NCBI GenBank assembly: GCA_958296405.1
Contig: OY282519.1
Span: 1,100,132 to 1,164,131, forward strand
Reading direction: 5' to 3'
Length of the DNA: 64,000 nt
From: an uncultured Pseudomonadales bacterium
GTDB taxonomy: Bacteria; Pseudomonadota; Gammaproteobacteria; Pseudomonadales; Azotimanducaceae
Shown here piece after piece: positions 20,303 through 39,067 of this stretch (position 1 is its first letter; the number at the start of each line of letters is the position of its first letter). The notes below the pieces were generated by a model. That model ran no database searches, had not been told where the DNA came from, and saw only the letters and a program-made list of their open reading frames with translations. A program made the translations under genes and the position numbers.

Positions 20303-20580
20303 GCCCGCGAGTTCTTTCTCTCTGCCCCCACTCGCTGGGGCCGTAGGGTGGCGGTCCCGCGAGCAGTAACTCGGCGTGGGGATGGGGGCGTGGTCCCGCT
20401 GCGCTTCTTGAGCCATGTCCTGCGGGCCTTGGCGGCGGCTGAGGGAAACGCCTCAGACCCTGCCATACAATCTCGCAGAAACGCTGGTGATGCCAGTGTA
20501 TGTCGAGGCGGATGCGTTCGGCGTGGCGGCTGGGCACAGCGCCGGCGAGGGCAACATGCATGGGAGGGGGTCGCACCGCA
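20303..20580. other. Non-coding left edge of island
   Basis: No supported gene. It holds a weak GC hairpin (GCCCC/GGGGC around 20324-20340), an isolated -10-like TACAAT at 20466-20471 without a good -35, and, at 20491-20532, a stretch whose translation (PVYVEADAFGVAAG) matches an internal caspase-domain segment of the next gene (PVYVEADVSGTAAG). Confidence 0.4.
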
Positions 20581-22704
20581 ATGAACGGATCGAAGCTGGC
20601 AGGCGCGGCGTGCGTGGCGTTCGCGCTGCTTGTTGGCGCTTCAGCGGCGGGCAACAAGAAGGGGGCGGCGGTGATTGTCGGCAATCGGACGTACACGGAT
20701 GACCGGGTGCCGGAGGTGGCCTACGCGCACAACGACGCGGATGCCTTCAAGCGTTTCGTGACGGAGCGGCTCGGGTACGACCCTGACAACGTGATCGACC
20801 TGCGCGACGCCACGAAGTCCCAATTGGAGACCGCGTTCGGGGTGCAAGGGAACGCGGAGGGCCTGCTGTGGCGCTACATCGACCCGTCCGGCGGCTCGGA
20901 CGTGGTGGTGTTCTACTCCGGCCACGGGGTGCCGGGGAAGGCGGGCCGCGGCTACCTGCTGCCGACGGACTCGAACCCGGACACGGCGGAGCTGAACGGC
21001 TACCCCATCGACCTGCTGTACGAGAACCTAAGCCGGCTGCAGACGCGCTCCACGACGGTGTTCCTGGACGCCTGCTTTTCGGGCGGCAGCCCGCGCGGGA
21101 TGCTGATCCGCTCGGCGTCGCCGGTGTATGTGGAGGCAGACGTGTCCGGCACCGCGGCCGGGCTGACGGTGCTGACGGCGGCAAGCGGCGCACAGCTGGC
21201 GAGCTGGGATGAGAAGGCGCGGCACGGCCTGTTCACGGAGCACCTGCTGGACGGGCTGTACGGGGCAGCGGATGCAGATAGCGACGGCCAAGTGACCGCG
21301 CGGGAGACGAAGCTGCACCTAGACCGCACGATGACGCGGGCAGCGCGGCGCGAGTTCGGGAGAGTGCAGGACGCCGGGCTGCACGGCGATGAGAGCGCGG
21401 TGCTGAGCGTCTCGTCTCCGGGCGGGTGGGGATCGCGCCCCACGCTGGGGCCACCGCCGGCGGCGTTCACGGTGGCCGTGGAGCCGGCGGACGCGCGGGT
21501 GCGGATTCTGAACATCGGCCCGCCGTACCGGGCAGGGATGGAACTGGCGGCCGGTTCATACCAAGTGGAGGCGAGCGCGCCGGGCTATGTGACGAAGACG
21601 GAGACGGTGAAGCACGGCACGGCGCCGACGGTGCATCAGTTTGCGCTCTCACGGCCCGGGCAGCCGTTCACGATCGTTGCCGAGCCGGCCCAAGCGCGGG
21701 TTCGGCTCTTGGATCATGCGGAGGCGTACCGAGCAGGGATGCTGCTGCCGCCGGGTTCCTACCGGGTTGAAGCGAGCGCAGAGGGCTTTGTGACAGCGAC
21801 GGAGACGGTGGCGCACAGCGGCGAGCCGACGGTGCGGCAGATCGCGCTGCGCCGCGCCGGTGCGCAGCCGGGCGAGAAGTTCCGAGACTGCCCGGAATGT
21901 CCGCAGATGGTGGTGGTGCCGGCGGGATCGTTCCGGATGGGTTCGCCGTCGCATGAGCAGGGACGCCAAGACGACGAAGGACCGGTGCATGCAGTGACGT
22001 TCCGTGTGCCGTTCGCGCTCGGCGTGCATGAGGTGACGGTCGCAGAGTTCGGGCGGTTCGTGGACGGGACGGGGCATTCAGCGGGGAACGGGTGCTACAC
22101 CTACGAGGGCGGCGAGTGGAAGGAACGAGACGGCCTCGGCTGGCGCAATCCGGGCTTCGGCCAGAGCGGCGGGCATCCCGTGGCGTGCGTGAGCTGGGAC
22201 GACGCGCAGGCGTATGTGGAGTGGCTGTCTCGAAGGACGGGGGAGCGGTACCGACTGCCGAGCGAATCCGAATGGGAGTACGCGGCGCGGGCGGGCACGT
22301 CGACGTCGCGTTACTGGGGGGATAGCGAGTCTGGCCAATGCCGGCATGCCAACGGGGCGGACGCCACTCTGAAAGAACGCTACCCGAATTGGACCGCGGC
22401 GGCGTGTCGGGACGGTCAGGCACACACTGCGCCGGTTGGCAGCTACGAAACAAACGGCTGGGGCTTGCACGACATGCTGGGCAATGTTTGGGAATGGACG
22501 GGGGACTGCTGGAACGCCAGCTATGAGGCGGCGCCGCGGGACGGGAGCGCGTGGGGATACGGGGATTGCGCGAAGCGCGTTTTGCGCGGCGGCTCCTGGT
22601 ACGGCGGTCCAGCGGGCCTCCGCGCCGCGAACCGGAGCGGGGACTCCTCCGGCCTCCGCAGCAGCGGCGTCGGGTTCCGGGTGGCCCGGACGCTCACCCC
22701 ATGA
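20581..22704 (+). CDS. Exported caspase-like/FGE fusion, DGR target A
   Basis: 707-aa protein. Signal peptide residues 1-24; caspase-like (C14) domain ~30-260 with His115 in YSGHG and Cys165 in LDACFSGG; EF-hand loop DADSDGQVTARE at 231-242; two PEGA-like beta repeats (~296-350 and ~363-418, both with ARVR and a PGSYRVEAS/AGSYQVEAS core); FGE/C-type-lectin domain ~438-707 (VVVPAGSFRMGSP, SESEWEYAARAG, LGNVWEWT). The C-terminal codons form a variable region like that of diversity-generating retroelement targets. ATG 20581 is chosen for the signal peptide. An Avd-like gene follows. Likely role: exported or surface protease whose FGE fold recognises a variable ligand (inference). Confidence 0.88.
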   Translation: MNGSKLAGAACVAFALLVGASAAGNKKGAAVIVGNRTYTDDRVPEVAYAHNDADAFKRFVTERLGYDPDNVIDLRDATKSQLETAFGVQGNAEGLLWRYIDPSGGSDVVVFYSGHGVPGKAGRGYLLPTDSNPDTAELNGYPIDLLYENLSRLQTRSTTVFLDACFSGGSPRGMLIRSASPVYVEADVSGTAAGLTVLTAASGAQLASWDEKARHGLFTEHLLDGLYGAADADSDGQVTARETKLHLDRTMTRAARREFGRVQDAGLHGDESAVLSVSSPGGWGSRPTLGPPPAAFTVAVEPADARVRILNIGPPYRAGMELAAGSYQVEASAPGYVTKTETVKHGTAPTVHQFALSRPGQPFTIVAEPAQARVRLLDHAEAYRAGMLLPPGSYRVEASAEGFVTATETVAHSGEPTVRQIALRRAGAQPGEKFRDCPECPQMVVVPAGSFRMGSPSHEQGRQDDEGPVHAVTFRVPFALGVHEVTVAEFGRFVDGTGHSAGNGCYTYEGGEWKERDGLGWRNPGFGQSGGHPVACVSWDDAQAYVEWLSRRTGERYRLPSESEWEYAARAGTSTSRYWGDSESGQCRHANGADATLKERYPNWTAAACRDGQAHTAPVGSYETNGWGLHDMLGNVWEWTGDCWNASYEAAPRDGSAWGYGDCAKRVLRGGSWYGGPAGLRAANRSGDSSGLRSSGVGFRVARTLTP
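22594..22671 (+). other. Variable region A (DGR-type VR)
   Basis: From the codon before TGG to the codon before GGGTTC. The 24 codons after TGG align without gaps to targets B and C. In the three-way comparison, 24 of 72 columns differ, 22 of them at codon positions 1 or 2. Blocks such as CTCCGCGCCGCG are invariant. Variable codons mostly end in C, as expected from AAC-rich template codons. Confidence 0.82.
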
Positions 22705-22729
22705 ATCTTAACCTCCTTACCTCGGGGGT

Positions 22730-22749
22730 TCGGGGGGCAAGCCCCCCGA
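22730..22749 (+). other. Post-VR hairpin 1, copy A
   Basis: Perfect 8-bp stem TCGGGGGG / CCCCCCGA closing a CAAG tetraloop, 26 bases after the stop codon. Copies exist after targets B and C. The position matches the GC-rich hairpin/cruciform known to promote homing in phage BPP-1. Confidence 0.75.
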
Positions 22750-22755
22750 CGGGTT

Positions 22756-22785
22756 CCAAGGGCGAAGCCCTTGGTCGATTTTTTT
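22756..22785 (+). terminator. Post-VR hairpin 2 with T-run, copy A
   Basis: 8-bp stem CCAAGGGC-GAA-GCCCTTGG (22756-22774) followed by TCGA and seven T residues: a rho-independent terminator shape, conserved after all three targets. Confidence 0.7.
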
Positions 22786-22800
22786 CGAGGGTTCTTCAAT

Positions 22801-23136
22801 TTGAGCAATAGCAGCGAGAGCGTTCATTCGGATCCGCCGCCGGACCGGGCCCGCTCAACCGGCGTAGCGTTGGAAGCCCACTACCGCTTCGTGGTTTGGC
22901 TGGTGCCGACGCTGGAGCGCTTCCCGCGCAGCCAGAAGTTCCTCCTCGGCGACCGCATCCAACACACCGCGCTCGACGTGCTCGAGCGCCTGATCGAGGC
23001 CACCTACACCCGCCGCCGCGGCAGCCAGCTCACGCTGGCCAACGTCGGTTTAGAGAAGCTGCGGCTCCTATGTCGGCTTGCGCGCGATCTGCGCTACTTG
23101 GATGCGCGCCGCTATCTGCGAACGGGCGAGGCATGA
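22801..23136 (+). CDS. avd: Avd-like DGR accessory protein, C-terminally short
   Basis: 111-aa protein of the bAvd four-helix family, the basic pentameric partner that DGR reverse transcriptases need for mutagenic homing. The core is unmistakable: HYRFVVWLVPTLERFPR, QKFLLGDRIQ, ALDVLERLIEATYTR, and GLEKLRLLCRLARDLRYLDARRY. Family members usually continue ~15-25 residues into a final helix; here the frame ends at RTGEA, so the last helix is missing or replaced. No ATG is available; TTG 22801 with GAGG ten bases upstream is chosen, and TTG 22870 is possible. The stop overlaps the next gene as ATGA. No reverse transcriptase follows. Confidence 0.82.
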   Translation: MSNSSESVHSDPPPDRARSTGVALEAHYRFVVWLVPTLERFPRSQKFLLGDRIQHTALDVLERLIEATYTRRRGSQLTLANVGLEKLRLLCRLARDLRYLDARRYLRTGEA

Positions 23137-24845
23137 GCGGTAGACGCCTTGCGTGGACACTCGCAGCGTGTGCGCTAGCCGTCGGCGCGTTCGTCGCGCT
23201 GCTGGCTACGGGGTTCTTCGATGCGGCCGAATCCAGTGTCAATCCCTTCAGCGCCCAAGATTCATCCCAACCGGAGGACGATGCAGGCCCCCCGCCGGAA
23301 ATCGCCTTGGCTGCCCAACTCATGAACGACATCCCGGCCGGCGCCAAGGTAGCCATCCAACCGCTCGACCAGCGCTATGCGGGTTTGGAACCAGCCATCG
23401 GCGATCCGCTCTATGAGCGCCTGCTGATCGCACTCTCCGACGCCGCCGAAGAGGACGTGACGCTGCTGGCCCGCGAACGGCTCCGCGCCATCTACAACAG
23501 CCTCGAGGAGTTCTACCAAGGCGACATCGAATCCCTGCTGCGCGAAGCCCAAGCGGACATCGAGATCATCTGCAAACCTACGTCCGACGCCACCGGCATC
23601 ATCCTCTCCTGCTCCGCCGTGCGCCTCGTCAACGCCGCCACCCTCGCCACCGCCGCCGCACACTTCCCCATCACCCGCAGCGCCGCCCACTTCGACGTGG
23701 CCATCGACGCCATCGCCAGCCGCTTGGCCCAAGGCGTACCGCCCGGCACGTTGGAACTGGTGCCACTCCTAGACACCGGCGTGGAAACCGCCCTCACCCG
23801 CCACATCGGCGAACGCTTGGAAGACAAGATCACCACGCTGATGGCGAGGCGCTCGGGCAGCCGCACCGCCGAGGCGGCCGCGAATGCGGCGTTAGGCAGT
23901 GGCACGGCTCCTAGCTCGGATGTTCCACGCTATCGCCTGCGCGGCGAACTGCGCCGTTTGGACGACAAACGCTTCCGCGTGGATGCCCGTGTGCTGCGCG
24001 ACGAACGGAAGCTGATCGCGGACGGAGCGGACGTGGCCACCGCATCGGTTCCCAAGGACTTGGCAGCCAGCTTGGGCCGGGACGACGGCCCACCAGAGCC
24101 GACAACGCGCTACGAAGCGGTGGCGGAGGCGGTGATATCGGATCGCCTAGACCCCGCCTCCGCCCGCCGCGCCGCCCGCAACCTAGCCCGCGCCCGCGTG
24201 ATAGCCCAAGCGTTGGGACTAGAGTCTCCCACGGTAGACGAAGTGCGCACCGAGGCGGATGCCGTCTCCGCCTTGGGCGAGTACCTGAGCCAAGGCCTGC
24301 CCGTGGACGAGCAGTTTCACGATCACAAATCGGCGGTTGACAACGGTTCGCGCATTGGCGTTAGACTCACGGCAAAGGTGGTGCCGGTCGGGGCGGTTAG
24401 CCGCCCAGCAGTAACGGCGAAGCTGCCGAAGACGGTGTTCAAGGCGATGGAACCAATTGCCATCGAGTTGCGAAGCGAAGCCCGCGTGTTCTTGGGCGTG
24501 TTTGCTTGGGGAGCCGACAACAAGGTCGTGCGACTGTACCCGAACGCCACACGACGGCAGCTAACGATGGAAGCCGGCGACATGCTGGTACTGCCGTCAG
24601 AAGGCGAAGGCCGCATCCGGTCTGAGCCCTTGAAGACTGAGGGGAACCTTGAAGACCACGAAGCTCTGATCATTGTTGCGGCGACGACGGGTGTTGACTA
24701 CGGTGAGTTGGCACCTGTAGCGGGGGCGACGTTCGTGGAGACGACGGGGCGAGCCCTAGATGGCGGCAAATTTCTTGCCACGCTCGCGATGATCGGGCCT
24801 AGCAAGATGGCGGTAGTGGCACTGAGCTATCAGGTGCATTTGTAG
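23133..24845 (+). CDS. Membrane-anchored FlgO/DUF4384-like protein
   Basis: 570-aa protein. Residues ~5-27 are a transmembrane anchor or uncleaved signal. Residues ~60-200 (AKVAIQPLDQRYAGL, LLARERLRAIYNSLEEFYQGDI) resemble the FlgO/CsgG/TolB-N type fold. The C-terminal ~150 residues (VFLGVFAWGADNKVVRLYPN, then DMLVLPSEGEGRI) match DUF4384, a domain often found with exported caspases. It starts at ATG 23133 overlapping the avd stop (ATGA), so expression is coupled to the caspase/FGE-avd unit. Role unknown; probably a periplasmic or surface partner. Confidence 0.65.
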   Translation: MSGRRLAWTLAACALAVGAFVALLATGFFDAAESSVNPFSAQDSSQPEDDAGPPPEIALAAQLMNDIPAGAKVAIQPLDQRYAGLEPAIGDPLYERLLIALSDAAEEDVTLLARERLRAIYNSLEEFYQGDIESLLREAQADIEIICKPTSDATGIILSCSAVRLVNAATLATAAAHFPITRSAAHFDVAIDAIASRLAQGVPPGTLELVPLLDTGVETALTRHIGERLEDKITTLMARRSGSRTAEAAANAALGSGTAPSSDVPRYRLRGELRRLDDKRFRVDARVLRDERKLIADGADVATASVPKDLAASLGRDDGPPEPTTRYEAVAEAVISDRLDPASARRAARNLARARVIAQALGLESPTVDEVRTEADAVSALGEYLSQGLPVDEQFHDHKSAVDNGSRIGVRLTAKVVPVGAVSRPAVTAKLPKTVFKAMEPIAIELRSEARVFLGVFAWGADNKVVRLYPNATRRQLTMEAGDMLVLPSEGEGRIRSEPLKTEGNLEDHEALIIVAATTGVDYGELAPVAGATFVETTGRALDGGKFLATLAMIGPSKMAVVALSYQVHL

Positions 24846-24901
24846 GATGAGGAAGTGAGCTCGTTCGTACCTCTTCCCGTCTCCATGCCAAGCTCCCAGT
24901 A

Positions 24902-27586: not shown

Positions 27587-27730
27587 GCAAAACGATCTTA
27601 TCTATCCTAGATGCAAAAATTGTTTTGGGCCAGGATGGTACAGTATCGCCCGCTAGCAGTAGTTTGCTGAAGTGTCTTGACGAACCTCATAAGGTGAGTA
27701 CGACGTCGGGTGGTAACCTTGCCGGAGTAC

Positions 27731-28117
27731 TTACAACGGAAGGAATGCCCGATCAGCCTCGACCCAACGCACCTCCGGAAGCGACAACAATAGCGCCAGC
27801 ACACTTGGCGTTGCCCTTACGGCCAGCACCGGCAACGTTTCATAGACGCGAATCGCGGCCAACCCGTCCGCGGACATAACGGTTCGCAATCGCGCCAATA
27901 CCCGTGCCCGCGCTGTCGCCAACGGCTCACCCTCTTGGGCGGCGAGGGTGACGAGAATCGGGATGAAACCGGGAGTTTCGATTTCGCTCGGCATGTGCTC
28001 CCCGGCATCCGCCTGCGGCGGCGTCAGGAGACAGCAGCCCGTAGCGATGGTCGCAAGTGCCAGTGTCAGCACCATGCGGAGGTGCCGCCAATGGCCCTTA
28101 CCGGCTCGCTTGCTCAT
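27731..28117 (-). CDS. Small lipoprotein resembling subtilase propeptide (I9)
   Basis: 128-aa predicted lipoprotein (TIATGC lipobox after a short hydrophobic stretch). The body, FIPILVTLAAQEG, then a helix, ETLPVLAVRATPSVLALL and LPEVRWVEAD, follows the beta-alpha-beta pattern of the inhibitor-I9/subtilisin propeptide fold, ending in V-E-x-D as propeptides do. ATG 28117 overlaps the subtilase stop (ATGA), with GGGAG upstream; a longer frame to 28132 exists. The subtilase next door has its own N-terminal region, so this may be a separate inhibitor or chaperone in trans. Confidence 0.6.
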   Translation of the reverse strand: MSKRAGKGHWRHLRMVLTLALATIATGCCLLTPPQADAGEHMPSEIETPGFIPILVTLAAQEGEPLATARARVLARLRTVMSADGLAAIRVYETLPVLAVRATPSVLALLLSLPEVRWVEADRAFLPL

Positions 28118-29664
28118 ATCACCGGCTCCCATACTTTCTTCTTCTCCCGCGGCGGTTCGGGTTCTTCCTCGTCTTCGTCGCTCGCTGGCGGCTCCGGCGT
28201 CGGTTCAACGGGCGTCTCTTCGTTCGCCGGCGGTTCTGGTGCCGGCTCCGGTTCGACCGGCGGTTCCTCCGGTGCCGTCTCTGGCTCCCGCCGTTCTACT
28301 TCGTCCTCTCTCGGCCTGCCACCCGTCAGATGCGCGATCGCGGCCTGCACCTGCACCAGCTCCGCCGCCGTGCCCCGCTGCCGAAAGTCGTCGATGCGCT
28401 GCCCGGTCGCTTTGAGCGCAGCCACCAAGTCCTCCACGCTGGCTTCTGGCGCTGCCTGCCGCAGCAGGGCCATCACGCCGGCGACATGGGGCGCGGCCAT
28501 CGAGGTGCCGTCGAAGGCGTCGTAGCCTTGGCGCAGTCGGCCGCTGCTGGCGTCCAACACGGAGGAGCGGATGGCGACGCCTGGGGCCAGCACGTCCAGA
28601 GTCGGGCCGCTGTTGGAGAAGGCGGCCACTTGGGCGCGTTTGTCCACCGCGCCGACGCTTACGAAGCCGTCCACGCAGGCTGGGAAGCCCACTGGAGCGG
28701 CGCGTCCTTGCGACGAACCGTTGCCGGATGCCACCACCACCGGAACCCCGGCTTCACGGAACAGGCGGGCGGCCAAGTCCCACACCGTGGCTTGGCACAC
28801 GCCGTAGCTGTCGCGTTCGGCGCCCAAGCTCATGTTGACGGCCGCGATCTGGCCGGGGCGTTCGCGGGCGAGGGTGAGCACGCGGTCCAGCGCCGCGAGG
28901 ATGCCGTTGCCGGCCATGCCGCGGGAATCGCGGTTGGCGACGTTGAAGATCATCAGCCCGAGTTCTGGGCCGACGCCGGAGAGGTTGTCCGGCGCAGACT
29001 GGCCGAGCACGATGCCGGCCACATGCGTGCCGTGGGTGCCGACGGGCGCTGCGGCGCCGACGCCTACCATGGCAGGTTGGCCGTTCGGGCAGCGGTCCGC
29101 GAAGCAGCCCTCGTAGATGACGCGGCCGCGTAGGAAAGGGTGTGTGACATCGGCCCCGTCGTCAATCACAGCAACCGCGAGGCCCTCGCCGGTGAAACCG
29201 TCCGTCCAGGCGGCGTCTGCGCCGACCATGCGCACGCTGTCGCGCAGCGTCGGATACAGGATGGGGTCTTCCCACACCTCCACGCCGGCGCGATAGGTCT
29301 TGGCGCGGCGCAGGGCGGCGGCATCCAGGCGCATGGCCAGCACGGGGAAGTTGTCGTAGCGGCGGGTAACGACGGCTGTTGCAGAGGAGGACTGGAGCTC
29401 GCGGGTGAACTCGTCGCCAGTGATCGCCACGATGCCGCCGGCGGCGCTGCCTTGGCCGACTTCGTCGCCAGTGATGGGGCGCCAGCCCGTGACGAGGACG
29501 GGCACGGTGTCGCTGGTCGAAGCGGTAGCAAGCAGGCGGTCGAAATCGTCGGCGCTGGCGGGGGAACCGAGCAGCACTGCGACGAGAACGAGTGCATGGA
29601 AAGCCAGCGCACCGAGCGCATTTGTGGAGGGTTGGGGGGAGAGATGGGGTTGGCTGGCTTTCAT
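28114..29664 (-). CDS. Exported subtilisin-like serine protease (S8)
   Basis: 516-aa subtilase. Signal sequence ~17-38 (ALVLVAVLLGSPASA); N-terminal propeptide-like region to ~135; catalytic Asp168 (VIDDGAD), His211 (HGTHVAG), Ser388 (GTSMAAPHVAG), with VVVASGNGSS as the oxyanion Asn segment. The last ~75 residues are an extreme Pro/Glu tail ending KKKVWEPVI, perhaps a wall- or membrane-spanning stalk. ATG 29664 is used (a TTG precedes it). It lies behind caspase/FGE target B on the same strand, so it may be co-expressed with it apart from the hairpins between, and is coupled to the I9-like lipoprotein. Confidence 0.87.
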   Translation of the reverse strand: MKASQPHLSPQPSTNALGALAFHALVLVAVLLGSPASADDFDRLLATASTSDTVPVLVTGWRPITGDEVGQGSAAGGIVAITGDEFTRELQSSSATAVVTRRYDNFPVLAMRLDAAALRRAKTYRAGVEVWEDPILYPTLRDSVRMVGADAAWTDGFTGEGLAVAVIDDGADVTHPFLRGRVIYEGCFADRCPNGQPAMVGVGAAAPVGTHGTHVAGIVLGQSAPDNLSGVGPELGLMIFNVANRDSRGMAGNGILAALDRVLTLARERPGQIAAVNMSLGAERDSYGVCQATVWDLAARLFREAGVPVVVASGNGSSQGRAAPVGFPACVDGFVSVGAVDKRAQVAAFSNSGPTLDVLAPGVAIRSSVLDASSGRLRQGYDAFDGTSMAAPHVAGVMALLRQAAPEASVEDLVAALKATGQRIDDFRQRGTAAELVQVQAAIAHLTGGRPREDEVERREPETAPEEPPVEPEPAPEPPANEETPVEPTPEPPASDEDEEEPEPPREKKKVWEPVI

Positions 29665-29737
29665 CAAGGAGTTCAGTGTTGCCGGTACGCGATGCCTGCT
29701 ATGGAAGGATTAGAGCAGAGATCGGTCGCCCATCCGC

Positions 29738-29769
29738 AAGGGAAAATCGACCAAGGGCTTCGCCCTTGG
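29738..29769 (-). terminator. Post-VR hairpin 2 with T-run, copy B
   Basis: On the minus strand, CCAAGGGC-GAA-GCCCTTGG (29769-29751) is followed by TCGATTTTCCC. Identical stem to copy A but a shorter T-run. Confidence 0.6.
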
Positions 29770-29775
29770 AACCCA

Positions 29776-29795
29776 TCGGGGGGCTTGCCCCCCGA
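29776..29795 (-). other. Post-VR hairpin 1, copy B
   Basis: Same 8-bp G6/C6 stem and CAAG loop as copy A, at the same distance from the target-gene stop. The block from the variable region to this hairpin is essentially identical to copy A. Confidence 0.75.
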
Positions 29796-29820
29796 ACCCC
29801 CGAGGTAAGGAGGTTAAGAT

Positions 29821-32220
29821 TCATGGGGTGAGCGTCCGGGCCACCCGGAACCCGACGTAGAGGCTGCGGTCGCCGGTGGCGTCCCAGTCCCGGTCCGCGG
29901 CGCGGAGGACCGCTGGAATGAGGTCCCAGGCGCCGCCGCGCAAAACGCGCACGCCGCAATTCCCACTCAGCCACGCGCTCCCGTCGCTCGGCGCTCCACG
30001 GTAGCTGCCGTTCCAACAGTCCTCCGTCCACTCCCGAACGTTGCCATGCATGTCGTGCAGGCCCCAGGCGTTCGTGCCGAAACTCCCAACGGGCGCAGTC
30101 TTGCTGTCGTCCCACCGGCTGCCACAGCCCTCGCAGTTGGCCAAGTTGACGCCGATCGCGTCGCCCCAGCTATACGCCGTCTCCGTGCCCGCACGCGCCG
30201 CGTACTCCCACTCCGACTCGCTCAGCAGGCGGTACGGCTTCTTCGTCTTCTCCGCCAGCCATCGAACATAGCGCTTGGCGTCGCCCCAGCTCATATAGAT
30301 CACCGGGCGCCGACCGCGCCCCCAGCCTCTGTCCTTCGCGATGTCTTTGTGCCGCGGACAGCCACGATCACGCGCACAAGCATCCCACTCCTCAAACGTT
30401 ACCTCGTACCTGCCCACTGCGAACGGCGCGCCCATCGTCACCTCATGCACCGGGCCTTCGTCTTCGTCCCGTCCCCGCTCGTGCGACGGCGAACCCATCA
30501 TGAACGAGCCCGCCGGCACCACCACCATCTCGGGGCAGTCCGGGCAATCGCGCCCCACCCAGATGCCGTCCTCTTCAACGAACCCATCGAACGGTCCTTT
30601 GTTAGACGCCAACGTCGCCACGGCAGCTGCTCTGGCACTAGGAACCAGCGCGGCCTCGCGCGAGTTGGGATACCGCCGCAGAAAGGCGTCGAAGTCGGCC
30701 ACGCGCAAACTGCCAGCAAGGGACGGCCACACCAGTGTTGCTGCGCGCTGCCGCGCTTCCTCCGCAGCGGCGCCTTGCGGGTAGCGGGCGAGGTAGCCGT
30801 CCAGCGCAGATTTGCTCGCTCGCTGGACGCGCTGTCGAAGCGCCGCCACGGCCAACTCGGCGAAACGGCCATCCGGATTGCTCGCAAGATATTCCTCGAA
30901 CGCCTCTAGCCTGTTGCTCTTCTCCATGGGAACCCACACGAGTTCCTGCAGCCGGGCAAGAGCGAGCGGCGCGAACGTGCCACTGGGGAACTGTTGCAGA
31001 TACGCCTCGAACCCTGAGGCGTCGCCATCCTTCACGGATTCCCAGAAGGCGGCTTCCAGCGCTGCATCGCGGGCGGGCGCAGGCGCTGAAGGCGGCGGGT
31101 GCGCCGAGGGCGGCTGATCGTCCAAGAGCCGTGCGAACACGAACGCTTCGCCGCCTTGGGCCGTGGCAACCAGCAGCCACTCGCCACCGCGCACCTGACC
31201 CTTCACAACCACCTCTTCGCCAGCGGCGAGCGAGCCAGCCACCGGATGCTCGGTGCTTGGCCCCCTGCGCAAATTGGTGCGCTGCTTCGCCCAGCGCACG
31301 CCATCCAGCTCCTCGATGTCCCCTGGGGAGGCGCCACCCGGCCCCAGCGCCGGGCGCGTGCCGAACCCCGTGTCGCCGGAGAAGGCCAGCGACCTGTCGC
31401 CGTCGCCCAGCAAACTCGCCACTTGGTTCCGCTTGTAGGTGCGGCGGGCGGCGCGGGTCATGTGCCGGTCCAAGTAGCGTTTCGCCTCCGTCGCGCTTAC
31501 GCTGCCATCGCCGTCCGCATCGCCCTTGCCGTACAAGGCGTCCAGCAGGTGGTGGGTGAACATGCCGTGGCGGGCGGCGGTGTCCCAACTGGCCAGTTGG
31601 CCGCCGGAAGCGGCCGTCAGCACTGTCATGGCGCCAGCCACGGCGTTGGGCAGTGCCGCCGTGACGTACACGGGCGAGGCGTTCTCGATCAACATGCCGC
31701 GTTGGCTGCCGCCGGAGAAGCAGGCGTCCAAGAACACCGCCACGGAACCCGCTTCGTCCAGCTTCGCCAAGTTGGAATAAAGCAGATCGATGGGATAGGC
31801 GTTCAGCTCCGGCACGTTCGGGTCCGCATCTGCAGGCAGCAGATAGCCCTTGCCGTCCCGCTGGCCCGGCACGCCGTGGCCGGAGTAGAACACCACCACG
31901 TCCGAGCCCCCGGCGGGATCTAGGTAAGACCACAGGTTGCCTTGGGCGCTCGCCTGGTTGCCGAACGTGGCCACCATCTGCGCCTGCGTCGCATCGCGCA
32001 GGTCCAAGATGTTGTCCGGGTCGTAGCCGAGCGCATCCACCACATAGCGCTTGAACGCATCGGCGTCTCGGTGCGCGTAGCTCACCTCCGGCACCGCGCC
32101 TTGGTAGTGCCGATTGCCGATGATCACCGCCACGCCGCTCGAGTTGGCGTACGCGGCCACCCCGCTCGCGGAGAGGGTGAACGCAAGGCTCAGGGTCATG
32201 ACGAGACGGCGGACGACCAT
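29821..32220 (-). CDS. Exported caspase-like/SH3/FGE fusion, DGR target B
   Basis: 799-aa protein. Signal peptide ~1-25; caspase-like domain with His115 (YSGHG) and Cys167 (LDACFSGG); EF-hand loop DADGDGSVSATE; a bacterial SH3-like domain around residues 310-370 (TNLRRGPSTEHPVAGSL); a run of helical repeats with YLxxxPxGxFA spacing (~390-540); then the FGE domain (PAGSFMMGSP, SESEWEYAARAG, HGNVREWT). It ends LRGGAW, variable codons, then YVGFRVARTLTP like the other targets. ATG 32220 is chosen over TTG 32238 because the signal peptide starts there. Same presumed role as target A with a different middle. Confidence 0.88.
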   Translation of the reverse strand: MVVRRLVMTLSLAFTLSASGVAAYANSSGVAVIIGNRHYQGAVPEVSYAHRDADAFKRYVVDALGYDPDNILDLRDATQAQMVATFGNQASAQGNLWSYLDPAGGSDVVVFYSGHGVPGQRDGKGYLLPADADPNVPELNAYPIDLLYSNLAKLDEAGSVAVFLDACFSGGSQRGMLIENASPVYVTAALPNAVAGAMTVLTAASGGQLASWDTAARHGMFTHHLLDALYGKGDADGDGSVSATEAKRYLDRHMTRAARRTYKRNQVASLLGDGDRSLAFSGDTGFGTRPALGPGGASPGDIEELDGVRWAKQRTNLRRGPSTEHPVAGSLAAGEEVVVKGQVRGGEWLLVATAQGGEAFVFARLLDDQPPSAHPPPSAPAPARDAALEAAFWESVKDGDASGFEAYLQQFPSGTFAPLALARLQELVWVPMEKSNRLEAFEEYLASNPDGRFAELAVAALRQRVQRASKSALDGYLARYPQGAAAEEARQRAATLVWPSLAGSLRVADFDAFLRRYPNSREAALVPSARAAAVATLASNKGPFDGFVEEDGIWVGRDCPDCPEMVVVPAGSFMMGSPSHERGRDEDEGPVHEVTMGAPFAVGRYEVTFEEWDACARDRGCPRHKDIAKDRGWGRGRRPVIYMSWGDAKRYVRWLAEKTKKPYRLLSESEWEYAARAGTETAYSWGDAIGVNLANCEGCGSRWDDSKTAPVGSFGTNAWGLHDMHGNVREWTEDCWNGSYRGAPSDGSAWLSGNCGVRVLRGGAWDLIPAVLRAADRDWDATGDRSLYVGFRVARTLTP
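29854..29931 (-). other. Variable region B (DGR-type VR)
   Basis: Minus-strand counterpart of variable region A, with the same 24 codons after TGG. It reads D-L-I-P-A-V-L-R-A-A-D-R-D-W-D-A-T-G-D-R-S-L-Y-V. Differences from A and C fall almost only at codon positions 1 and 2. Confidence 0.82.
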
Positions 32221-32448
32221 CGCTTCTCTTGGCGGCAACTAGCGCAAACAAGCTTACTCGCTCGCCCCTATGGAAGTTTTAGCGCGAGAATCCGCCGCGC
32301 AAAGGCAAGACAGCGCATCCTCGCCGCCGCGCGGCTAGCGGTGCCAACGGGCCGGGCCAACGTCCTCGCCATTCTTCTGGCAGACATAGCGCGCCAAGCC
32401 CTTCCATAGCTCGTGCCATGGGAGTCCGTGAGCGAGGAGGAAGAGACG
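32221..32448. other. Divergent intergenic region
   Basis: 228 bases between target B (minus) and the lipoprotein gene (plus). It must hold promoters for both. I see no strong sigma-70 pair and no coding sequence beyond shadows. Confidence 0.4.
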
Positions 32449-33249: not shown

Positions 33250-33356
33250 TCGGCAGGGCCAACACCACATCCGCCCTGCCCACTGGCAAGCGCCGCGGTA
33301 GGCAAACGCAACCCACTCGCATACTCTGCGCGGCACGGGCTCGGGGAGGAAAACGC

Positions 33357-34817
33357 ATGCCGAGTGGCCGCGGCAGGGTGTTGGCCGCGTCGCAGAGCAG
33401 CGCATTGCGCGAAGTCTTCCGCCAATTGGCGGAAATCGAAGGGCCCAACGGCGCCAAGTTCACGCAGCGCGTGCTGATAGCCTTGGCCGCGCGCATTGTT
33501 GGCCGCGCCTACGAAACCTTGCTGCTGGAACTCTGCCACCTCGTGCGCGCTGCCGAGCTCGCTGGAAGGCGTGCCCCCGGCGACATGGGCTTCGAGTGGC
33601 TGTTCTGGGGCATCGAACTGGCCCGCGCAAGCGCCTTCCGCGCCGCCTTCGCCGCCACGCCCGCGCAAACGACCTCCGAGGGTGCCACGCTGCGCTACCC
33701 AGAAGGCGATTTCGAGGTGCGCTTCGGGCGCATGCCGATGCTCGCCGCCTTGATGGAGTTCCTCGTCTCTTTCTTGGGCTATCGGGCCGTCGCCGACGCT
33801 GCTGAGGAACTGGCCGCCGAAGATGCGACGCGCCAAGCCGTCTCCGCGGTTGCCAAACGTCTCGCCCGCCAACTCTATGCGGCGCTGCGCGACCACCTGC
33901 CCACGGCTCAAGCGCAACGCAAGCTCCACGCCGTCACCACGTTTCTGCAGCAAGAGGCGGGCGAGGGTTTCTCCGCGCACGACATCAACGACGAAGCGGT
34001 ACTGAACTTCTGGCTCGCCAACATTGCCAGCGACGCAGCGGGGGACTTTCGGGGTTTCCGAACCACCATGCTGGCCTTTCTGCGCTTGCGCCGCCTGCTG
34101 CTTGAAGGCGACAGCCTGCAAGCGCTCGCGCATCCCCTAGCCGTGGGCGGGGACGCGCAAGCCGGCGAAGTGGAGTTCTCGGCAGAGGCCGTGCTGCCGC
34201 CGGTGGTGGAAGAAGACCCGTTGGAACAACTGCAAGAGCCGCCGGCCGCATCCATCAAGGCGTACAACAAACGCGAACTCGCGGCACTGCAGCTGCCCGT
34301 GGCCGAAACGACGGGCATTGCCGCCTTGCGCCTTTCCTACCTGCGGGCGGAGACCTTCGGCGCATGGCAGAACCGCTTGACGCAAGCGTTGCGCCGCGAA
34401 TCCGGCGACGTCGCGGCGCTGATCGCGGCTGGCCCGCAGGCCACCTTTACGGACTGCGTCGCCGCCTTGACCCGTCTTGCCGAGCACACCCGGTGCGTGA
34501 TGGACGCGACGCTCTATGTGCTTCGGCGCCAGCGGGGAGACAACGGCAGCCCAACCGTCAACTTGGATGCGTTCGCCTCGCAACGGCAGGCGTTCAACGC
34601 CATCAACCGCGCCGGCTTCGACAACGCCGCGCTGGAAGACCCAGAGCGTCGCGTTGCCTTTGAGGCGCTCGCCAACGCGCTCGCGCCGATCTCCAAAGCC
34701 TTGGCGACGTTGATCGAAACGTTCAAGGACAAGGCGTGGCGCGCGAGCGAGGCCGACGATCGCTTGCTGTTCGCAGCGGCGTTCAAGCACCTGTACGGGG
34801 TGGGGGAAGACCAATGA
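33357..34817 (+). CDS. Unknown protein X of X-Y-Z operon, 486 aa
   Basis: No family recognised. The product is largely alpha-helical with Ala/Leu/Arg-rich heptads and no signal peptide or membrane segment, so cytoplasmic. Segments that may help a search are MGFEWLFWGIELARAS, EVRFGRMPMLAALMEF and NFWLANIASDAAGDFRGFR. ATG 33357 has GGGGAGGA seven bases upstream; the frame continues to ATG 33246, which overlaps the previous stop. It overlaps gene Y as ATGA, so X, Y and Z are co-translated. Confidence 0.6.
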   Translation: MPSGRGRVLAASQSSALREVFRQLAEIEGPNGAKFTQRVLIALAARIVGRAYETLLLELCHLVRAAELAGRRAPGDMGFEWLFWGIELARASAFRAAFAATPAQTTSEGATLRYPEGDFEVRFGRMPMLAALMEFLVSFLGYRAVADAAEELAAEDATRQAVSAVAKRLARQLYAALRDHLPTAQAQRKLHAVTTFLQQEAGEGFSAHDINDEAVLNFWLANIASDAAGDFRGFRTTMLAFLRLRRLLLEGDSLQALAHPLAVGGDAQAGEVEFSAEAVLPPVVEEDPLEQLQEPPAASIKAYNKRELAALQLPVAETTGIAALRLSYLRAETFGAWQNRLTQALRRESGDVAALIAAGPQATFTDCVAALTRLAEHTRCVMDATLYVLRRQRGDNGSPTVNLDAFASQRQAFNAINRAGFDNAALEDPERRVAFEALANALAPISKALATLIETFKDKAWRASEADDRLLFAAAFKHLYGVGEDQ

Positions 34818-35365
34818 GCACGCCTTGGCGCAACTTGAGCGACGAGCGGCGCGAGCGTCTGCGGGCTGCGTTCGTGGCTTGGCACGGCGCAGACCTGCTG
34901 CTGGAAGCCGAGGACGATGCAGAGCCGCCATCGCGGCCATTGTTTGCGGAACTGTTTGCCGCGGCGACGGCACCCGGGCGGCCATTGCCGGCGGCCATCG
35001 GCCGAGCCCTGCTGGCCGATCCAGCGTTGCTCCAAGACTTCAACTTGCTGCTCACGCGCACCGCCCGCGTCCATGTGCCGCGCGCGGCTGCCGCGGCATC
35101 GGGCGCGCTGCAGCGCCGCGAAGCGGGTGGCTATTCGCTTCGCGTGGTGCCTTCCCGCGCCGGCGATGGGCAGGTGTACTTGTTGATCGAAGTGCCGGAA
35201 GGCCAAACGCCGCCGCGGCAGCTCGTCATCAGCACCCCGGATGGCGCCATCTGCAAGGAGGAACTGCCGCCGCCCGCCGGGCGCACCATCCGCTTGCTGA
35301 AGGACGCCGACGATGCCCTGCCGCGAGCCTTCGCTCGGCCAGACAGCGAGTTGTTTCTGTCGTGA
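34814..35365 (+). CDS. Unknown protein Y of X-Y-Z operon, 183 aa
   Basis: Cytoplasmic by composition. The first half is helical; the second half (YSLRVVPSRAGDGQVYLLIEV, then RQLVISTPDGAICKEEL) looks like a small beta domain. No family recognised. ATG 34814 overlaps the X stop (ATGA) and its own stop overlaps the GTG start of Z (GTGA), a tight three-gene unit that suggests a complex of fixed stoichiometry. Confidence 0.6.
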   Translation: MSTPWRNLSDERRERLRAAFVAWHGADLLLEAEDDAEPPSRPLFAELFAAATAPGRPLPAAIGRALLADPALLQDFNLLLTRTARVHVPRAAAAASGALQRREAGGYSLRVVPSRAGDGQVYLLIEVPEGQTPPRQLVISTPDGAICKEELPPPAGRTIRLLKDADDALPRAFARPDSELFLS

Positions 35366-36654
35366 GGGCGCGGGTGCTGATCGCCACGACCGAAGGGCCG
35401 GTGACCATCCAGCGGATTACCGCCGAGGATGCGGACGTGCCCTCCGTGGCCTGCTTGGACGGCACCACCACGGTGCTCGGCATCTCCAACGGCTACGCCC
35501 GCTTCGTGAACAAGGGCACCGGCTTGATTGCCGACCTCACCGGCCACGCCGCCTACCGGCTGGACTTGGACGGCCGCGTGGACGGCGGCCAGAGCTGGCA
35601 GCTGCCGGTGTTGCTTGCGCATCTCCTATCCGCCGAAGGCGCGCTGGCTGGGCCGGACGAGCCTGCCACGTTAACGATACTGGCAACGGGCGAGGTGGAT
35701 CGAGACCAGCGCGTGCGAGCGGTGAGCGGCATGGCTGAGAAGATCGCGCAGGCGGGGCCGCTGCTGGCCGAACAGGCGGCGGGCGAAGGTCGGCTGCTGG
35801 TGATCGTGCCGCAAGCCAATGCGCCAGTGGCCGCGCTGCCGGACGGTGTGCGCCTGATGGCGTGGGAACGGTTCGAGGGGCTGGCGGCGCTTGCCGAACA
35901 TGGTGGAGAGCACTTGGCCACGGCGGTGCCAAGCAAGGCCGTGGCTAGGCAACGCAGCAAGCGGCCAGCGGCGGGCCGCGTTTGGCTGGTTGTCGCGGCG
36001 CTGGCAGCCATCGCCGCGGCCGGCTACGCCGCTTGGCGAGCCGCTGCCGACGATTGGGAAGCCCTGCGCAAACAAGGCGATTACGCGGCGTTGGACGCGG
36101 CGCTCAAGCAGGCTTGGCCGCCCGCGTCTGCGCTGTATGCCGCGCTGTTGAAGGCGCAAGCCCCCGCTGCGCGAGCGCTGTCTGTGGACGTGACCGAGCT
36201 GCGCACCGCGGACGCCGGCTCTTGCGCCGGGCGGCGGTTTCGAGACGTCGGCTTGGTGGAAACCCGCCTCGCTGAACACCGCCCCGGCTTCTACCGCTCG
36301 GAAGACCGCCAAGGTCTCTGCGCGATCCGCTACCGCGTAACCAACCGTGGCGACTCGGTGGTTTATGCGTATCTGGCAGTGGTGCCGGCGCTGGCAGAGG
36401 CCAACGGAGCGACGCGACTGCCGGCGACCACCCAAGCCGCCGCCCTGCTGCCGGAAGGAACGCTGGACGTGCAGGTTGCCCTGCCGCTGCGGGCGGTGGG
36501 CGCGAGCCTAGTAGCCATTGCCGCGCCGAACCCTTCGCCGCAGTTGCGTCGGGCCGTTGGATCGATCAGCGCAACCGAGCCATCGGAACTCGCCATCGCG
36601 CGCCTGCCGGGCCTCGGCGTGACGCTAGCGACCGCTACCCATGCGGTGCTGTGA
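35362..36654 (+). CDS. Membrane protein Z with Lon-like (S16) N-terminal domain
   Basis: 430-aa protein. Residues ~70-165 follow the Lon proteolytic-domain pattern: GGQSWQLPVLLA (candidate nucleophile Ser78, cf. Lon G-P-S-A-G), ILATGEVDRDQRVRAVSG, AEKIAQA (candidate Lys127, cf. Lon K-E-K) and LVIVPQANAP (cf. V-L-P-x-x-N). The Ser-Lys spacing of 49 is close to E. coli Lon's 43. A transmembrane helix spans ~206-224; the remaining ~200 residues, probably periplasmic, carry an immunoglobulin-like stretch (LCAIRYRVTNRGDSVVYAYL). No ATPase domain is fused. GTG 35362 is coupled to Y. Convergent with target C. Confidence 0.6.
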   Translation: MRARVLIATTEGPVTIQRITAEDADVPSVACLDGTTTVLGISNGYARFVNKGTGLIADLTGHAAYRLDLDGRVDGGQSWQLPVLLAHLLSAEGALAGPDEPATLTILATGEVDRDQRVRAVSGMAEKIAQAGPLLAEQAAGEGRLLVIVPQANAPVAALPDGVRLMAWERFEGLAALAEHGGEHLATAVPSKAVARQRSKRPAAGRVWLVVAALAAIAAAGYAAWRAAADDWEALRKQGDYAALDAALKQAWPPASALYAALLKAQAPAARALSVDVTELRTADAGSCAGRRFRDVGLVETRLAEHRPGFYRSEDRQGLCAIRYRVTNRGDSVVYAYLAVVPALAEANGATRLPATTQAAALLPEGTLDVQVALPLRAVGASLVAIAAPNPSPQLRRAVGSISATEPSELAIARLPGLGVTLATATHAVL

Positions 36655-36701
36655 CGGAAGCGTGCTTGCGGAGGATGAGGCGCACACGGGGCGTCTCTGC
36701 G

Positions 36702-36732
36702 GGCGAAAAATGGCCGAGGACTTCGCCCTTGG
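36702..36732 (-). terminator. Post-VR hairpin 2 with T-run, copy C
   Basis: Minus strand stem CCAAGGGC-GAA-GTCCTCGG (36732-36714) with one mismatch and one G:U, followed by CCATTTTT. A decayed but still foldable version of copies A and B. Confidence 0.55.
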
Positions 36733-36738
36733 AACCCG

Positions 36739-36756
36739 TCGGGGGCATGCCCCCGA
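36739..36756 (-). other. Post-VR hairpin 1, copy C
   Basis: 7-bp stem TCGGGGG / CCCCCGA with loop CATG. One G and one C have been lost relative to copies A and B, keeping the stem perfectly paired, which argues for selection on the hairpin. Confidence 0.72.
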
Positions 36757-36781
36757 ACCCCCGAGGTAGGGAGGTTAAGAC

Positions 36782-38929
36782 TCATGGGGTGAGCGTCCGA
36801 GCCACGCGGAACCCGATGCTGCCGTTGCGCTCGTCGGTGGGGTCCCAGAACCGGTTCGCGGCGCGGAGGAGCGCTGGTTCGTCGTTCCAGGAGCCGCCGC
36901 GCAAAACGCGCTTCGCGCAATCCCCACTCAGCCACGCGCTCCCGTCGCTCGGCGCTCCGCGGTAGCTGCCGTTCCAGCAGTCCTCCGTCCACTCCCACAC
37001 GTTCCCATGCATGTCGTGCAGACCAAAGGCGTTGGGCCGGTAGGTGCCGACCCGCGTCGGATACGCCGCGCCGTCGCTGCACCCGGCCTTGTTGGTCCAC
37101 GCGTTGCCGTTGGGCAGAGGCGTCTCGTCCGCGACGTTGCCATACGCGCAAAGTTGAGTCTCGTCGTTGCCAAAATGGTACTTCGTCTCACTCCCAGCCC
37201 GCGCCGCGTACTCCCACTCCGATTCGCTCGGCAGACGATATGGCACCCCTGCAATCTCCGACAACCACGCCGCATACTTCTTCGCGTCGTTCCAACTCAC
37301 GCAGACCACCGGCTGGCCGCCCTTGATTTCGTACTCCAAATCCCGCCAACTCCGCCCGGCCGTGTATTCCCACTTGCTCCTAGTTGGATTCTCCAAGGTC
37401 AGGCACCCCTTTTCAGGGTCCCGCTCCGCGGCCGTGCGGTAGCCCGTCTCGTCCGCGAACCGGCCGAACTCCGCAACCGTCACTTCGTACACCCCGAGGG
37501 CGAACGGCGCACGGAACGTCACCGCATGCACAGGCCCCTCGTTGTCATCGCGCCCCTGCTCCCAGGACGGCGAGCCCATCCGGTACGATCCCGCCGGAAC
37601 CACCAACATCTCCGGACAATCCCGGCAGTCGCGGAACTTCCCGCCCACCTTGCGCAGCACGATGCGCCGCATCGTCGGCGCCGTGCGGTGCGCCACCGTC
37701 TCCGTCGCTGCCACAAAACCTTCCGCGCTCGCTTCCACCCGGTAGGAACCCGGCGGCAGCAGCATCCCCGCTCGATACACCTCCGCGTGACCCAGCAGCC
37801 GAACCCGCGCCTGCGCCGGCTCCGCCAGGATCGTGAACGGCTGCCCGGGCCGCGACAGCGCCAGCCGATGCACCGTCGGCGCCCTGCCGTGCTTCACCGT
37901 CTCCGTCTTCGTCACATAGCCCGGCGCGCTCGCCTCCACCTGATACGACCCCGCCGCCAGTTCCATCTCCGCCCGGTACGGCGGGCCGATGTTCAGAATC
38001 CGCACCCGCGCGTCCGCCGGCTCCACTGCCACCGTGAACGCCGCCGGCGGTGTCCCCAGCGTTGGGCGCGCGCCCCACCCGCCCGGAGACGAGACGCTCA
38101 GCACCGCGCTCTCGTCCCCGTGTAGCCCCGCGTTTTGCTCGCGCCCGTAGGTGCGCCGCGCCGCGCGCGTCATGTGCCGGTTCAGATAGAGGCTCGCCTC
38201 CCGCGCGCTCACTTGGCCGTTGCCGTCCGCGTCTGCCTTGCCGTAGAGCGCGTCCAGCAGGTGCTGCGTGAACAAGCCGTGGCGGGCCTGCGTGTCCCAG
38301 CTTGCCAGCTGCTTGCCGCTCGCCGCGGTCAGCACCGTCAAGCCGGCGACGCCGGACACGTCCGCCTCCACATACACCGGCGACGCGCCGGCGATCAGCC
38401 GGCGGCCATCGCCGCTGCTTCCCGAAAAGCATGCGTCCAGAAACACCGTGGCCGATTTGTGCGGCACCTTGCCGAGGTTCTCGTACAGCACGTCTATCGG
38501 GTAGCCGTTGATCTCGGCCGTGTCCGGGTTCGCGTCCACGGGCAGCAGATAGCCGCGCCCGTCGTTGAGCCCCGGCACGCCGTGGCCGGAGTAGAACACC
38601 ACGATATCTGAACTGCCGTCCGCCTCCGTCCAGCGCCATAGCTGCCCGCGCACGTTGCCCTGCGAACCGAACGCGCTCTCCATTCGCGCCTTGGTGGCGT
38701 CCCGCAGATCCACCACGTTGTCCGGCGAAAAACCCAGCCCCCGCACGACGAACTGGAAGAAGGCATCCGCGTCGTTATGGGCGTAGTCCACATCGGGCAC
38801 GCGTTCGTCTTGGTATGCCTTGTTGCCGATGACCACAGCCACGCCGTATTCGTTGGTAGCTTCGGCGGCCTGGGCGCTTGGCAGCGTCAGCGCCAGCGCG
38901 AGAGGTCCCAAGCGCTTCCACCATCGCAT
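36782..38929 (-). CDS. Exported caspase-like/PEGA/FGE fusion, DGR target C
   Basis: 715-aa protein with the same plan as target A. Signal peptide ~1-22 (MRWWKRLGPLALALTLPSAQA); caspase-like domain with His116 (YSGHG) and Cys167 (LDACFSG); EF-hand loop DADGNGQVSARE; two PEGA-like repeats; FGE domain (VVPAGSYRMGSP, SESEWEYAARAG, HGNVWEWT). GGAGAA lies upstream of ATG 38929. The PEGA region is nearly identical to target A in sequence, whereas the FGE middle differs, so the three genes are a mosaic paralogue family. It is divergent from the AAA ATPase gene across 138 bases. Confidence 0.88.
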   Translation of the reverse strand: MRWWKRLGPLALALTLPSAQAAEATNEYGVAVVIGNKAYQDERVPDVDYAHNDADAFFQFVVRGLGFSPDNVVDLRDATKARMESAFGSQGNVRGQLWRWTEADGSSDIVVFYSGHGVPGLNDGRGYLLPVDANPDTAEINGYPIDVLYENLGKVPHKSATVFLDACFSGSSGDGRRLIAGASPVYVEADVSGVAGLTVLTAASGKQLASWDTQARHGLFTQHLLDALYGKADADGNGQVSAREASLYLNRHMTRAARRTYGREQNAGLHGDESAVLSVSSPGGWGARPTLGTPPAAFTVAVEPADARVRILNIGPPYRAEMELAAGSYQVEASAPGYVTKTETVKHGRAPTVHRLALSRPGQPFTILAEPAQARVRLLGHAEVYRAGMLLPPGSYRVEASAEGFVAATETVAHRTAPTMRRIVLRKVGGKFRDCRDCPEMLVVPAGSYRMGSPSWEQGRDDNEGPVHAVTFRAPFALGVYEVTVAEFGRFADETGYRTAAERDPEKGCLTLENPTRSKWEYTAGRSWRDLEYEIKGGQPVVCVSWNDAKKYAAWLSEIAGVPYRLPSESEWEYAARAGSETKYHFGNDETQLCAYGNVADETPLPNGNAWTNKAGCSDGAAYPTRVGTYRPNAFGLHDMHGNVWEWTEDCWNGSYRGAPSDGSAWLSGDCAKRVLRGGSWNDEPALLRAANRFWDPTDERNGSIGFRVARTLTP
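36815..36892 (-). other. Variable region C (DGR-type VR)
   Basis: Third copy: N-D-E-P-A-L-L-R-A-A-N-R-F-W-D-P-T-D-E-R-N-G-S-I after TGG. It retains the most adenines, including AAC at the first, eleventh and twenty-first codons, so it may lie closest to the missing template. Confidence 0.82.
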
Positions 38930-39067
38930 CGCGTTCTCCGTTGGCCGCGGCTGTCTGTGCATCATCTGGAGAAATGGAAGGGCTTGGGGCGGTTCCGTGC
39001 CGCGGCCAACGGCCAAGGATCAATGCTATGTTGCCATGATCTGTGACCCGACTGCCGAGGACATCGT

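Follow-up and report, generated by a model that had tools for sequence, protein, structure and literature searches.

What has written different codons into the same segment at the ends of three genes? The stretch of DNA analysed here (the window, 64,000 nucleotides from an uncultured Pseudomonadales bacterium) contains three genes, A, B and C, that join a caspase domain to a domain of the formylglycine-generating enzyme (FGE) family and end in hypervariable segments of 24 codons. Recounting the gap-free alignment of the three segments, we find that 24 of the 72 columns differ, 13 at codon position 1, nine at position 2 and two at position 3, exactly as stated in an initial annotation of this DNA. 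We conclude that the segments are very probably variable regions (VRs) of a diversity-generating retroelement (DGR), written by mutagenic retrohoming from one template. Neither the template nor a DGR reverse transcriptase (RT) was found in the genome that holds the window, a single contig of 3.83 Mb (G000).

Variable regions and template adenines

Each VR is located at the 3' end of a gene with the C-type lectin (CLec)/FGE fold, as judged from Pfam (in gene A, FGE-sulfatase with E 4.9e-66 and Peptidase_C14 with E 2.2e-14) and from profile matches of the FGE domain to formylglycine-generating enzymes, PvdO and the DGR protein TvpA (2y3c, E 1.1e-21). Among hits of the protein profile from named sources, the nearest comes from an Immundisolibacterales MAG (Gammaproteobacteria), at 49%. 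Between the VRs of genes A and B there are 18 differences in 72 positions, spread over 12 codons; all 18 are replacements and none is silent, and the next 69 nt on the 3' side are identical in the two genes (69/69).

A search of G000 with the VR of gene C returned six full-length matches, namely A, B, C and three loci outside the window (L2, L3 and L6, the latter also called L006; Table 1). All six are FGE gene ends reading LRGG[SA]W...GFRVARTL. Their 5' parts are unlike, with a caspase domain in A, B and C and, according to Pfam, only the FGE domain in L3 and L2. Genes C and L3 are identical over 60 of 60 nt upstream of the VR and differ at 19 of 72 positions inside it.

A template was written by hand from the VRs, with A placed at variable columns (a 129-nt version was used for searching G000); its style was not blind, the DGR template of another bacterium (L162, see below) being already known. 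Counts were made over 102 nt, comprising 28 A and 74 other sites of the inferred template, and are partly circular in that A had been placed at all but a few variable columns. Gene A is changed at 20 of the 28 template adenines and at none of the 74 other sites; for gene B the numbers are 18 and one, the single exception lying just 5' of the 72-nt core, and for gene C 13 and four, two of them just 3' of the core. Changes at non-A sites number 0/74 in L3, 4/74 in L2 and 11/74 in L6.

A test free of this circularity came from a relative. In 206 genomes of the family the inferred template has at least 34 matches (counting the best four at most per genome): 30 FGE gene ends, one cut-off FGE end in G066, two unrelated stretches and one repeat in G061. 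The two unrelated stretches are matches of 31-34 nt in G004 and G212. The G061 repeat (G061:C119:16761-16881) is 87% identical to the inferred template and rich in AAC, WNNKPRNLRSANRNRNNPGNRNNNNGFRVA. No long gene ends in it, as only 44 codons are open before it, and it adjoins an avd gene and pieces of an RT gene; we take it as a template repeat (TR). This TR has A at 25 of the 28 adenines of the inferred template. Over the 102 nt, it has A at 21 of the 27 columns that vary among A, B and C vs eight of the 75 invariant ones (Fisher p 2.1e-10); with L2 and L3 included, the counts are 25 of 32 and 4 of 70 (p 1.3e-13). In a gene-by-gene comparison with the G061 TR, from which two genes with an additional codon were excluded (one in G008, one in G066), differences were counted at 29 A and 73 non-A sites: the five closest G000 genes have 16-22 and 10-12, respectively, and L006 has 20 and 15. 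The variable sites coincide with template adenines. The initial annotation had proposed one template acting at three loci: one inferred template does fit, and the loci are more numerous than three, at least five in G000 fitting it.

A further feature of most targets is a GC-rich hairpin, seen in predicted folds behind the VR. Folding predicts a 7-8 bp stem some 25 nt 3' of the stop codon in A, B, C and L3 and in targets of three relatives (G8a of genome G008, and G066 and G065), and hairpin-homologous sequence stands behind five of the six G000 targets. One stem pair is T-A in G8a where A, B and C (by letters L3 too) have C-G. At E 0.01, the 88-nt element 3' of gene A is matched elsewhere in G000 behind genes B and C alone, the L2 and L3 versions being less alike.

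Table 1. Coordinates of the features discussed. Positions are those of the window, except in the last three rows, which refer to the G000 contig.
Feature	Position	Strand	Description	Basis
gene A	20500..22704	+	Peptidase_C14 caspase, PEGA and FGE-sulfatase; candidate DGR target	ORF list, Pfam
VR of gene A	22600..22671	+	24 codons 3' of LRGGSW	
hairpin A	22730..22749	+	GC-rich, TCGGGGGG-CAAG-CCCCCCGA, 25 nt after stop; candidate DGR target hairpin	sequence, predicted fold
terminator-like hairpin A	22756..22785	+	second hairpin and T run, resembling an intrinsic terminator	
avd relic	22771..23136	+	121-aa ORF; homology from ~22840; C-terminal end lost	PF22296, NF033474
hairpin B	29776..29795	-	GC-rich, 3' of gene B, like hairpin A	
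gene B	29821..32238	-	caspase, SH3 and FGE-sulfatase; candidate DGR target	ORF list, Pfam
VR of gene B	29854..29925	-	72-nt core	
hairpin C	36739..36756	-	GC-rich, TCGGGGG-CATG-CCCCCGA, 3' of gene C	
gene C	36782..39016	-	caspase, PEGA and FGE-sulfatase; candidate DGR target	ORF list, Pfam
VR of gene C	36815..36886	-	72-nt core	
L2	C1:2181907		FGE gene end, outside window	
L3	C1:1915895		FGE gene end, outside window	
L6 (L006)	C1:1195862		FGE gene end, outside window	

The avd relic and the missing machinery

Directly after gene A, its hairpin and the terminator-like hairpin there is an open reading frame (ORF) that the initial annotation does not list, a relic of the DGR accessory gene avd. 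Its product matches PF22296 (bAvd) with 44.9 bits, above the cut-off of 40, and NF033474 (DivGenRetAVD) with E 1.9e-22 and 79.5 bits, just under the cut-off of 80; it is 72% identical to residues 15-112 of the 133 residues of the G061 Avd. A bAvd domain thus adjoins the target, with its C-terminal part missing, and its stop codon overlaps a start codon of the next gene. Because an avd gene cut short at its C-terminal end directly follows gene A, this gene was probably the target of a DGR cassette in which RT and TR once followed.

DUF4384 is matched weakly, below the cut-off, by the frame after avd (window 22896-24845), which has an internal start that overlaps the stop codon of avd. Elsewhere in the window, a gene for a subtilase-family peptidase (28114-29667) adjoins gene B and one for an AAA_21 ATPase (39068-40234) adjoins gene C.

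Six of the 18 genomes searched contain avd matches: G000, G061, G009, G008, G065 and G066. G008, G065 and G066 have in common a target followed by an avd relic, and the breaks differ: the pieces behind the target correspond to residues 16-68 in G008, 14-70 in G066, and 14-63 plus, in another frame, 56-127 in G065. The alignment of G065 with G066 is close across the target, the hairpins and avd, until G066 breaks into unrelated sequence; the G065 avd has a one-base gap and runs on beyond it. Since neither break is present in the other genome, the two losses look independent. The common ancestor probably still had a whole avd gene, because G065 retains avd code that G066 has lost and G066 is free of the 1-nt gap of G065. 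At G066:C1:1097356 (L236:7357-7386), a cut-off FGE end, LRGGSWNN, is joined to what appears by eye to be ankyrin-like sequence, a broken relic of a target.

In G061, avd is open and a TR is present; of the RT query, only residues 4-93 and 216-347 are matched, on one draft contig in which an assembly fault is possible. Mu-like phage genes (Phage_Mu_F and Portal_Mu, L233:10486-13429 of G061:C119) adjoin avd, RT and TR, a possible phage vehicle of the DGR core.

According to the initial annotation, a template and a DGR RT were to be expected elsewhere in the genome. Neither expectation was borne out on the G000 contig. Searches of G000 with the VR of gene C and with the 129-nt inferred template match in full only the six targets, and beyond these only pieces of ~14-35 nt. 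Two such pieces were considered and not accepted as templates: G000:C1:196822-196852, which is short, and G000:C1:1748224-1748258, which is 35 nt long, 89% like the inferred template (E 5e-6) and located beside a long G run. A stop comes next after the latter piece, which may be a fragment of a target or of a template. A loose pattern search gave noise only, with fewer matches than the reversed control.

DGR-type RTs are characterised by the motifs [ILV]GxxxSQ and YxDD. An RT with the SQ-type motif was observed in L071 and L162; in G000 no DGR-type RT was found in searches with RVT_1 and with the RTs of BPP-1 and G009. RVT_1 has no match in G000 at E 0.001. Its sole match there (C1:3416748, 17.7 bits, E 0.005) was rejected as a DGR RT, being of the UG13a DRT type (PADLOC E 1.5e-76); the gene, L253:1096-2703, belongs to the DRT group and probably encodes a defence RT. 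The BPP-1 RT as query gave no match in G000, G004 or G008 at E 10; as positive control, both this search and that with RVT_1 recover BPP-1 itself. A search of the 206 family genomes with the DGR RT of G009 has matches at E 1e-6 in 18, which do not include G000; more than 36% identity is reached only in G009 itself and in one G061 piece.

The G000 contig closes on itself, an open frame of 2787 nt crossing the junction. Seven single-contig genomes contain such VRs (G000, G004, G008, G065, G066, G225 and G226); closure was checked in four, and open frames cross the contig ends in G008, G065 and G066 as well. None of the seven is among the 18 genomes that match the G009 RT; G225 has two RVT_1 matches whose class was not assigned. 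Because no template or RT was found on a self-closing contig, the DGR in G000 looks dead or driven from outside. The initial annotation had made its interpretation dependent on a template or RT in this genome or in related ones: neither was found in G000, but G061 has a TR and G009 a full DGR, so this interpretation is not refuted.

Divergence between species and rival explanations

The relatives also allow the VRs to be compared between species. In a syntenic gene pair of G065 and G066, the VR contains 17 replacement and no silent differences, and the rest of the gene has a silent divergence (dS) of 0.053 and a replacement divergence (dN) of 0.023. There are 17 differences per 72 nt in the VR vs at most seven in windows outside it (2,492 aligned nt), and replacements in the VR have accumulated at roughly sevenfold the rate of silent changes in this gene (Fisher p 7e-8). 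For L3 and its syntenic counterpart in G008 (11 kb at 95%), the VR has dN 0.52 and dS 0.066, compared with dN 0.070 and dS 0.174 in the rest. The corresponding VR in G005 and G002 is frozen, with no replacement and two silent differences, and G005 and G004 differ by few VR replacements (five; dN 0.099 vs 0.159 in the rest). Given the diverging pairs G065/G066 and L3/G008 on the one hand and the frozen pair G005/G002 and G005/G004, with its few replacements, on the other, diversification seems to have run after some species splits and stopped before others. We also considered G008b as the counterpart of L2 and rejected it; the flanks do not align, apart from one piece of 0.8 kb.

The best reading of these results is that caspase-FGE sensors were recently diversified by a DGR, and that RT and template were then deleted, probably repeatedly, with the targets kept. 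Adenine-directed rewriting from one template, as first proposed for this locus, is supported by the G061 TR, by avd beside gene A and by the replacement-only divergence of G065 and G066. In this process a complex of RT and Avd would have copied the template RNA with errors at adenines, and the mutated cDNA would then have been substituted, in trans, for the 3' ends of five or more FGE genes, with the GC-rich hairpin downstream of the targets perhaps serving as a guide. A later deletion would have removed RT, TR and the end of avd beside gene A, and this loss of the machinery is predicted to have frozen a receptor set made earlier. By analogy, the FGE (C-type-lectin-like) C-terminus is predicted to act as a sensor that binds a ligand, with the caspase domain as effector.

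Several observations weigh against recent diversification followed by loss. The template of the G000 lineage is itself a reconstruction, and neither a TR nor an RT that would speak for present activity was found in the genome. Over the six G000 genes the replacements of template adenines are uneven, 54 to G, 38 to T and 10 to C. L6 has 11 of 74 changes at non-A sites and no hairpin sequence 3' of the gene, and for these two reasons we regard it as old or off-template. Only a 4-bp stem is predicted for L2, and the folds predicted for L2, for G8c of G008 and for G066b are weaker or different. The loops are CAAG, CATG, CTTG and GTTA, not the GRNA tetraloop of phage DGR targets, in which a hairpin 4-34 bp behind the VR has been described (PMC3240598); because the loops differ, the likeness of these predicted hairpins to those of phages is one of place and shape only. 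Along the alignment of L3 with G008 the VR, with 22 differences per 72 nt, comes second to an intergenic block about 200 nt downstream, with 38. Between gene A and G8c (G008c), its likely counterpart, silent changes are not suppressed, dS being 0.379 in the VR and 0.376 in the rest; this pair can be aligned over ~1 kb that includes the 3' part of the gene, over 150 nt upstream of that and over the avd piece, with no wide synteny as proof. Finally, VR divergence between species could also be increased if a VR were overwritten, through gene conversion, by that of a different diversified paralogue.

A rival explanation is that diversification ended long ago, the differences predate the species split, and old VRs are moved about by gene conversion from gene to gene and from species to species. 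In the nine genomes of the same genus, no RT was recognisable as DGR-type; the RVT_1 matches there are the weak DRT-type one of G000 and seven others (two in G002, five in G007), four of them reading QGxxxSP and three unreadable; and L006 and G8c show many non-A or silent changes. On the other hand, non-A changes are almost absent from A, B and L3, and in the syntenic pairs L3/G008 and G065/G066 replacements exceed silent divergence several-fold, the ancestor of the latter pair probably still having had its whole avd. We regard an early end as unlikely.

If the DGR were instead still at work, its RT and template would have to reside on an extrachromosomal element (a plasmid, a phage or a subpopulation) and act in trans on the chromosomal targets. 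That the last rewriting looks recent, with non-A changes relative to the inferred template of 0/74 in A and L3 and 1/74 in B, would be in keeping with this, as would the Mu-like phage genes adjoining TR, RT and avd in G061, the fact that the G000 assembly consists of one contig only, and a similar template on a conjugative cyanobacterial plasmid. The inferred template matches this Acaryochloris plasmid stretch at 79%, next to annotated avd, RNA-directed DNA polymerase and FGE genes. This stretch is also the best full-core match in 72,556 plasmid records, none of which covers 80% of the inferred template; 50,697 phage records contain no match; and in viral contigs one TR pattern had no matches and another a single one, a different DGR-like repeat. 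Moreover, avd is cut short in G000 and broken in three relatives, and we count the frozen VR of G002/G005 against a DGR acting in trans. A DGR still active from outside is quite unlikely on this evidence. The viral repeat (L270:393-720, IMGVR_UViG_3300046777_002218) is a tandem of template-like and variable-like LRGGSW...GFR copies, a different DGR-like pair, and no RT was recognised by eye in the 3.6 kb of this contig.

It is very improbable that no retroelement was involved and that ordinary mutation under strong diversifying selection on ligand-contact residues, with gene conversion keeping the paralogues alike, produced the pattern: the LRGGSW...GFR segment does vary across the wider FGE family and paralogues do have common flanks (C and L3, for instance, over their 60 upstream nt), but the changes fall on the adenines of an independent TR, A and B combine 18 replacements with 69 identical bases, the VR of G065/G066 far outpaces the silent rate of its gene, avd adjoins gene A, and the same segment is not diversifying in G002/G005.

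Recent diversification followed by loss of the machinery may be one instance of a hit-and-run cycle, although we consider this extension doubtful. A mobile DGR core (RT, avd and template), perhaps carried on Mu-like phages or plasmids, would rewrite hairpin-bearing chromosomal caspase-FGE sensors and then be deleted, leaving the repertoire fixed, and the cycle would have been repeated at least in the lineages of G000, G008, G065 and G066.

Comparison with known DGR systems

VRs without an RT have been published before (PMC4372165, PMC7517822, PMC10907252), as have distal targets near a strongly mutated RT (PMC3521204). As far as the published DGR accounts available to us go, none describes targets on a closed chromosome without any DGR RT together with an avd scar in several sister species. 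Surveys that look for the RT first would miss target sets whose RT is gone. The closed contigs studied here show targets that outlive the machine, with the avd scar marking its former presence and sister genomes broken elsewhere. If the caspase-FGE proteins are suicide sensors, these bacteria would have retained their set of receptors and lost the ability to alter it.

DGRs with similar targets are found in G009, of the same family, and in L162, a metagenome-assembled genome of Methylococcaceae bacterium WB-IL-19. The G009 DGR is complete on one contig (G009:C41, L093), with two targets of 922 and 1089 aa that end, like those of G000, in FGE-like VRs; it also has an Avd and, unlike G000, a TR and an SQ-type RT. 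Three more FGE-type VRs on another G009 contig (G009:C48, L094) match the G009 TR only over 42 nt at 67%. Three FGE-type targets lie within 9 kb (1902-10258) of L162, together with an AAC-rich template and an RT of the SQ type; the targets resemble those of the window, and the presence of TR and RT sets this DGR apart. Both templates differ from that inferred for G000.

With the DGR of Bordetella phage BPP-1 (mtd, avd, TR, brt), the window shares adenine-directed 3' VRs, an Avd-family accessory gene and a GC-rich hairpin shortly behind the target, a hairpin being described as required in the phage (PMC3240598). It differs in that neither RT nor TR was found, that the avd gene is truncated, that the diversified protein is a cellular one of the caspase-FGE type, and that the loops are CAAG and CATG rather than GRNA. 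The nanoarchaeal DGR fragments without RT (PMC4372165), possible fossils, likewise combine adenine-directed variation with an absent RT gene; in that account DGRs with an RT are also described, and the targets have no known fold.

A role as sensors in conflict systems has been put forward for CLec/FGE targets of DGRs (PMC10907252). The DGR loci of Thiohalocapsa PB-PSB1 described there resemble the present case in having FGE/CLec targets of putative conflict systems and degenerate loci with missing or pseudogenised machinery; each class in PB-PSB1 is reported with one complete locus, whereas none was found here. In cyanobacteria, DGR targets that begin with a caspase-like part are known (PMC7517822). 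The orthocaspase/CLec targets described in that study, with the RT-less remnant all3226, have a caspase-like N-terminus on a CLec C-terminus, as in genes A, B and C, and also include remote targets and a remnant VR without a nearby RT. The cyanobacterial genomes, as described, hold DGR components, whereas in G000, on a closed contig, five to six targets have a single missing template in common, an avd scar is left, and the sister species are broken at different points.

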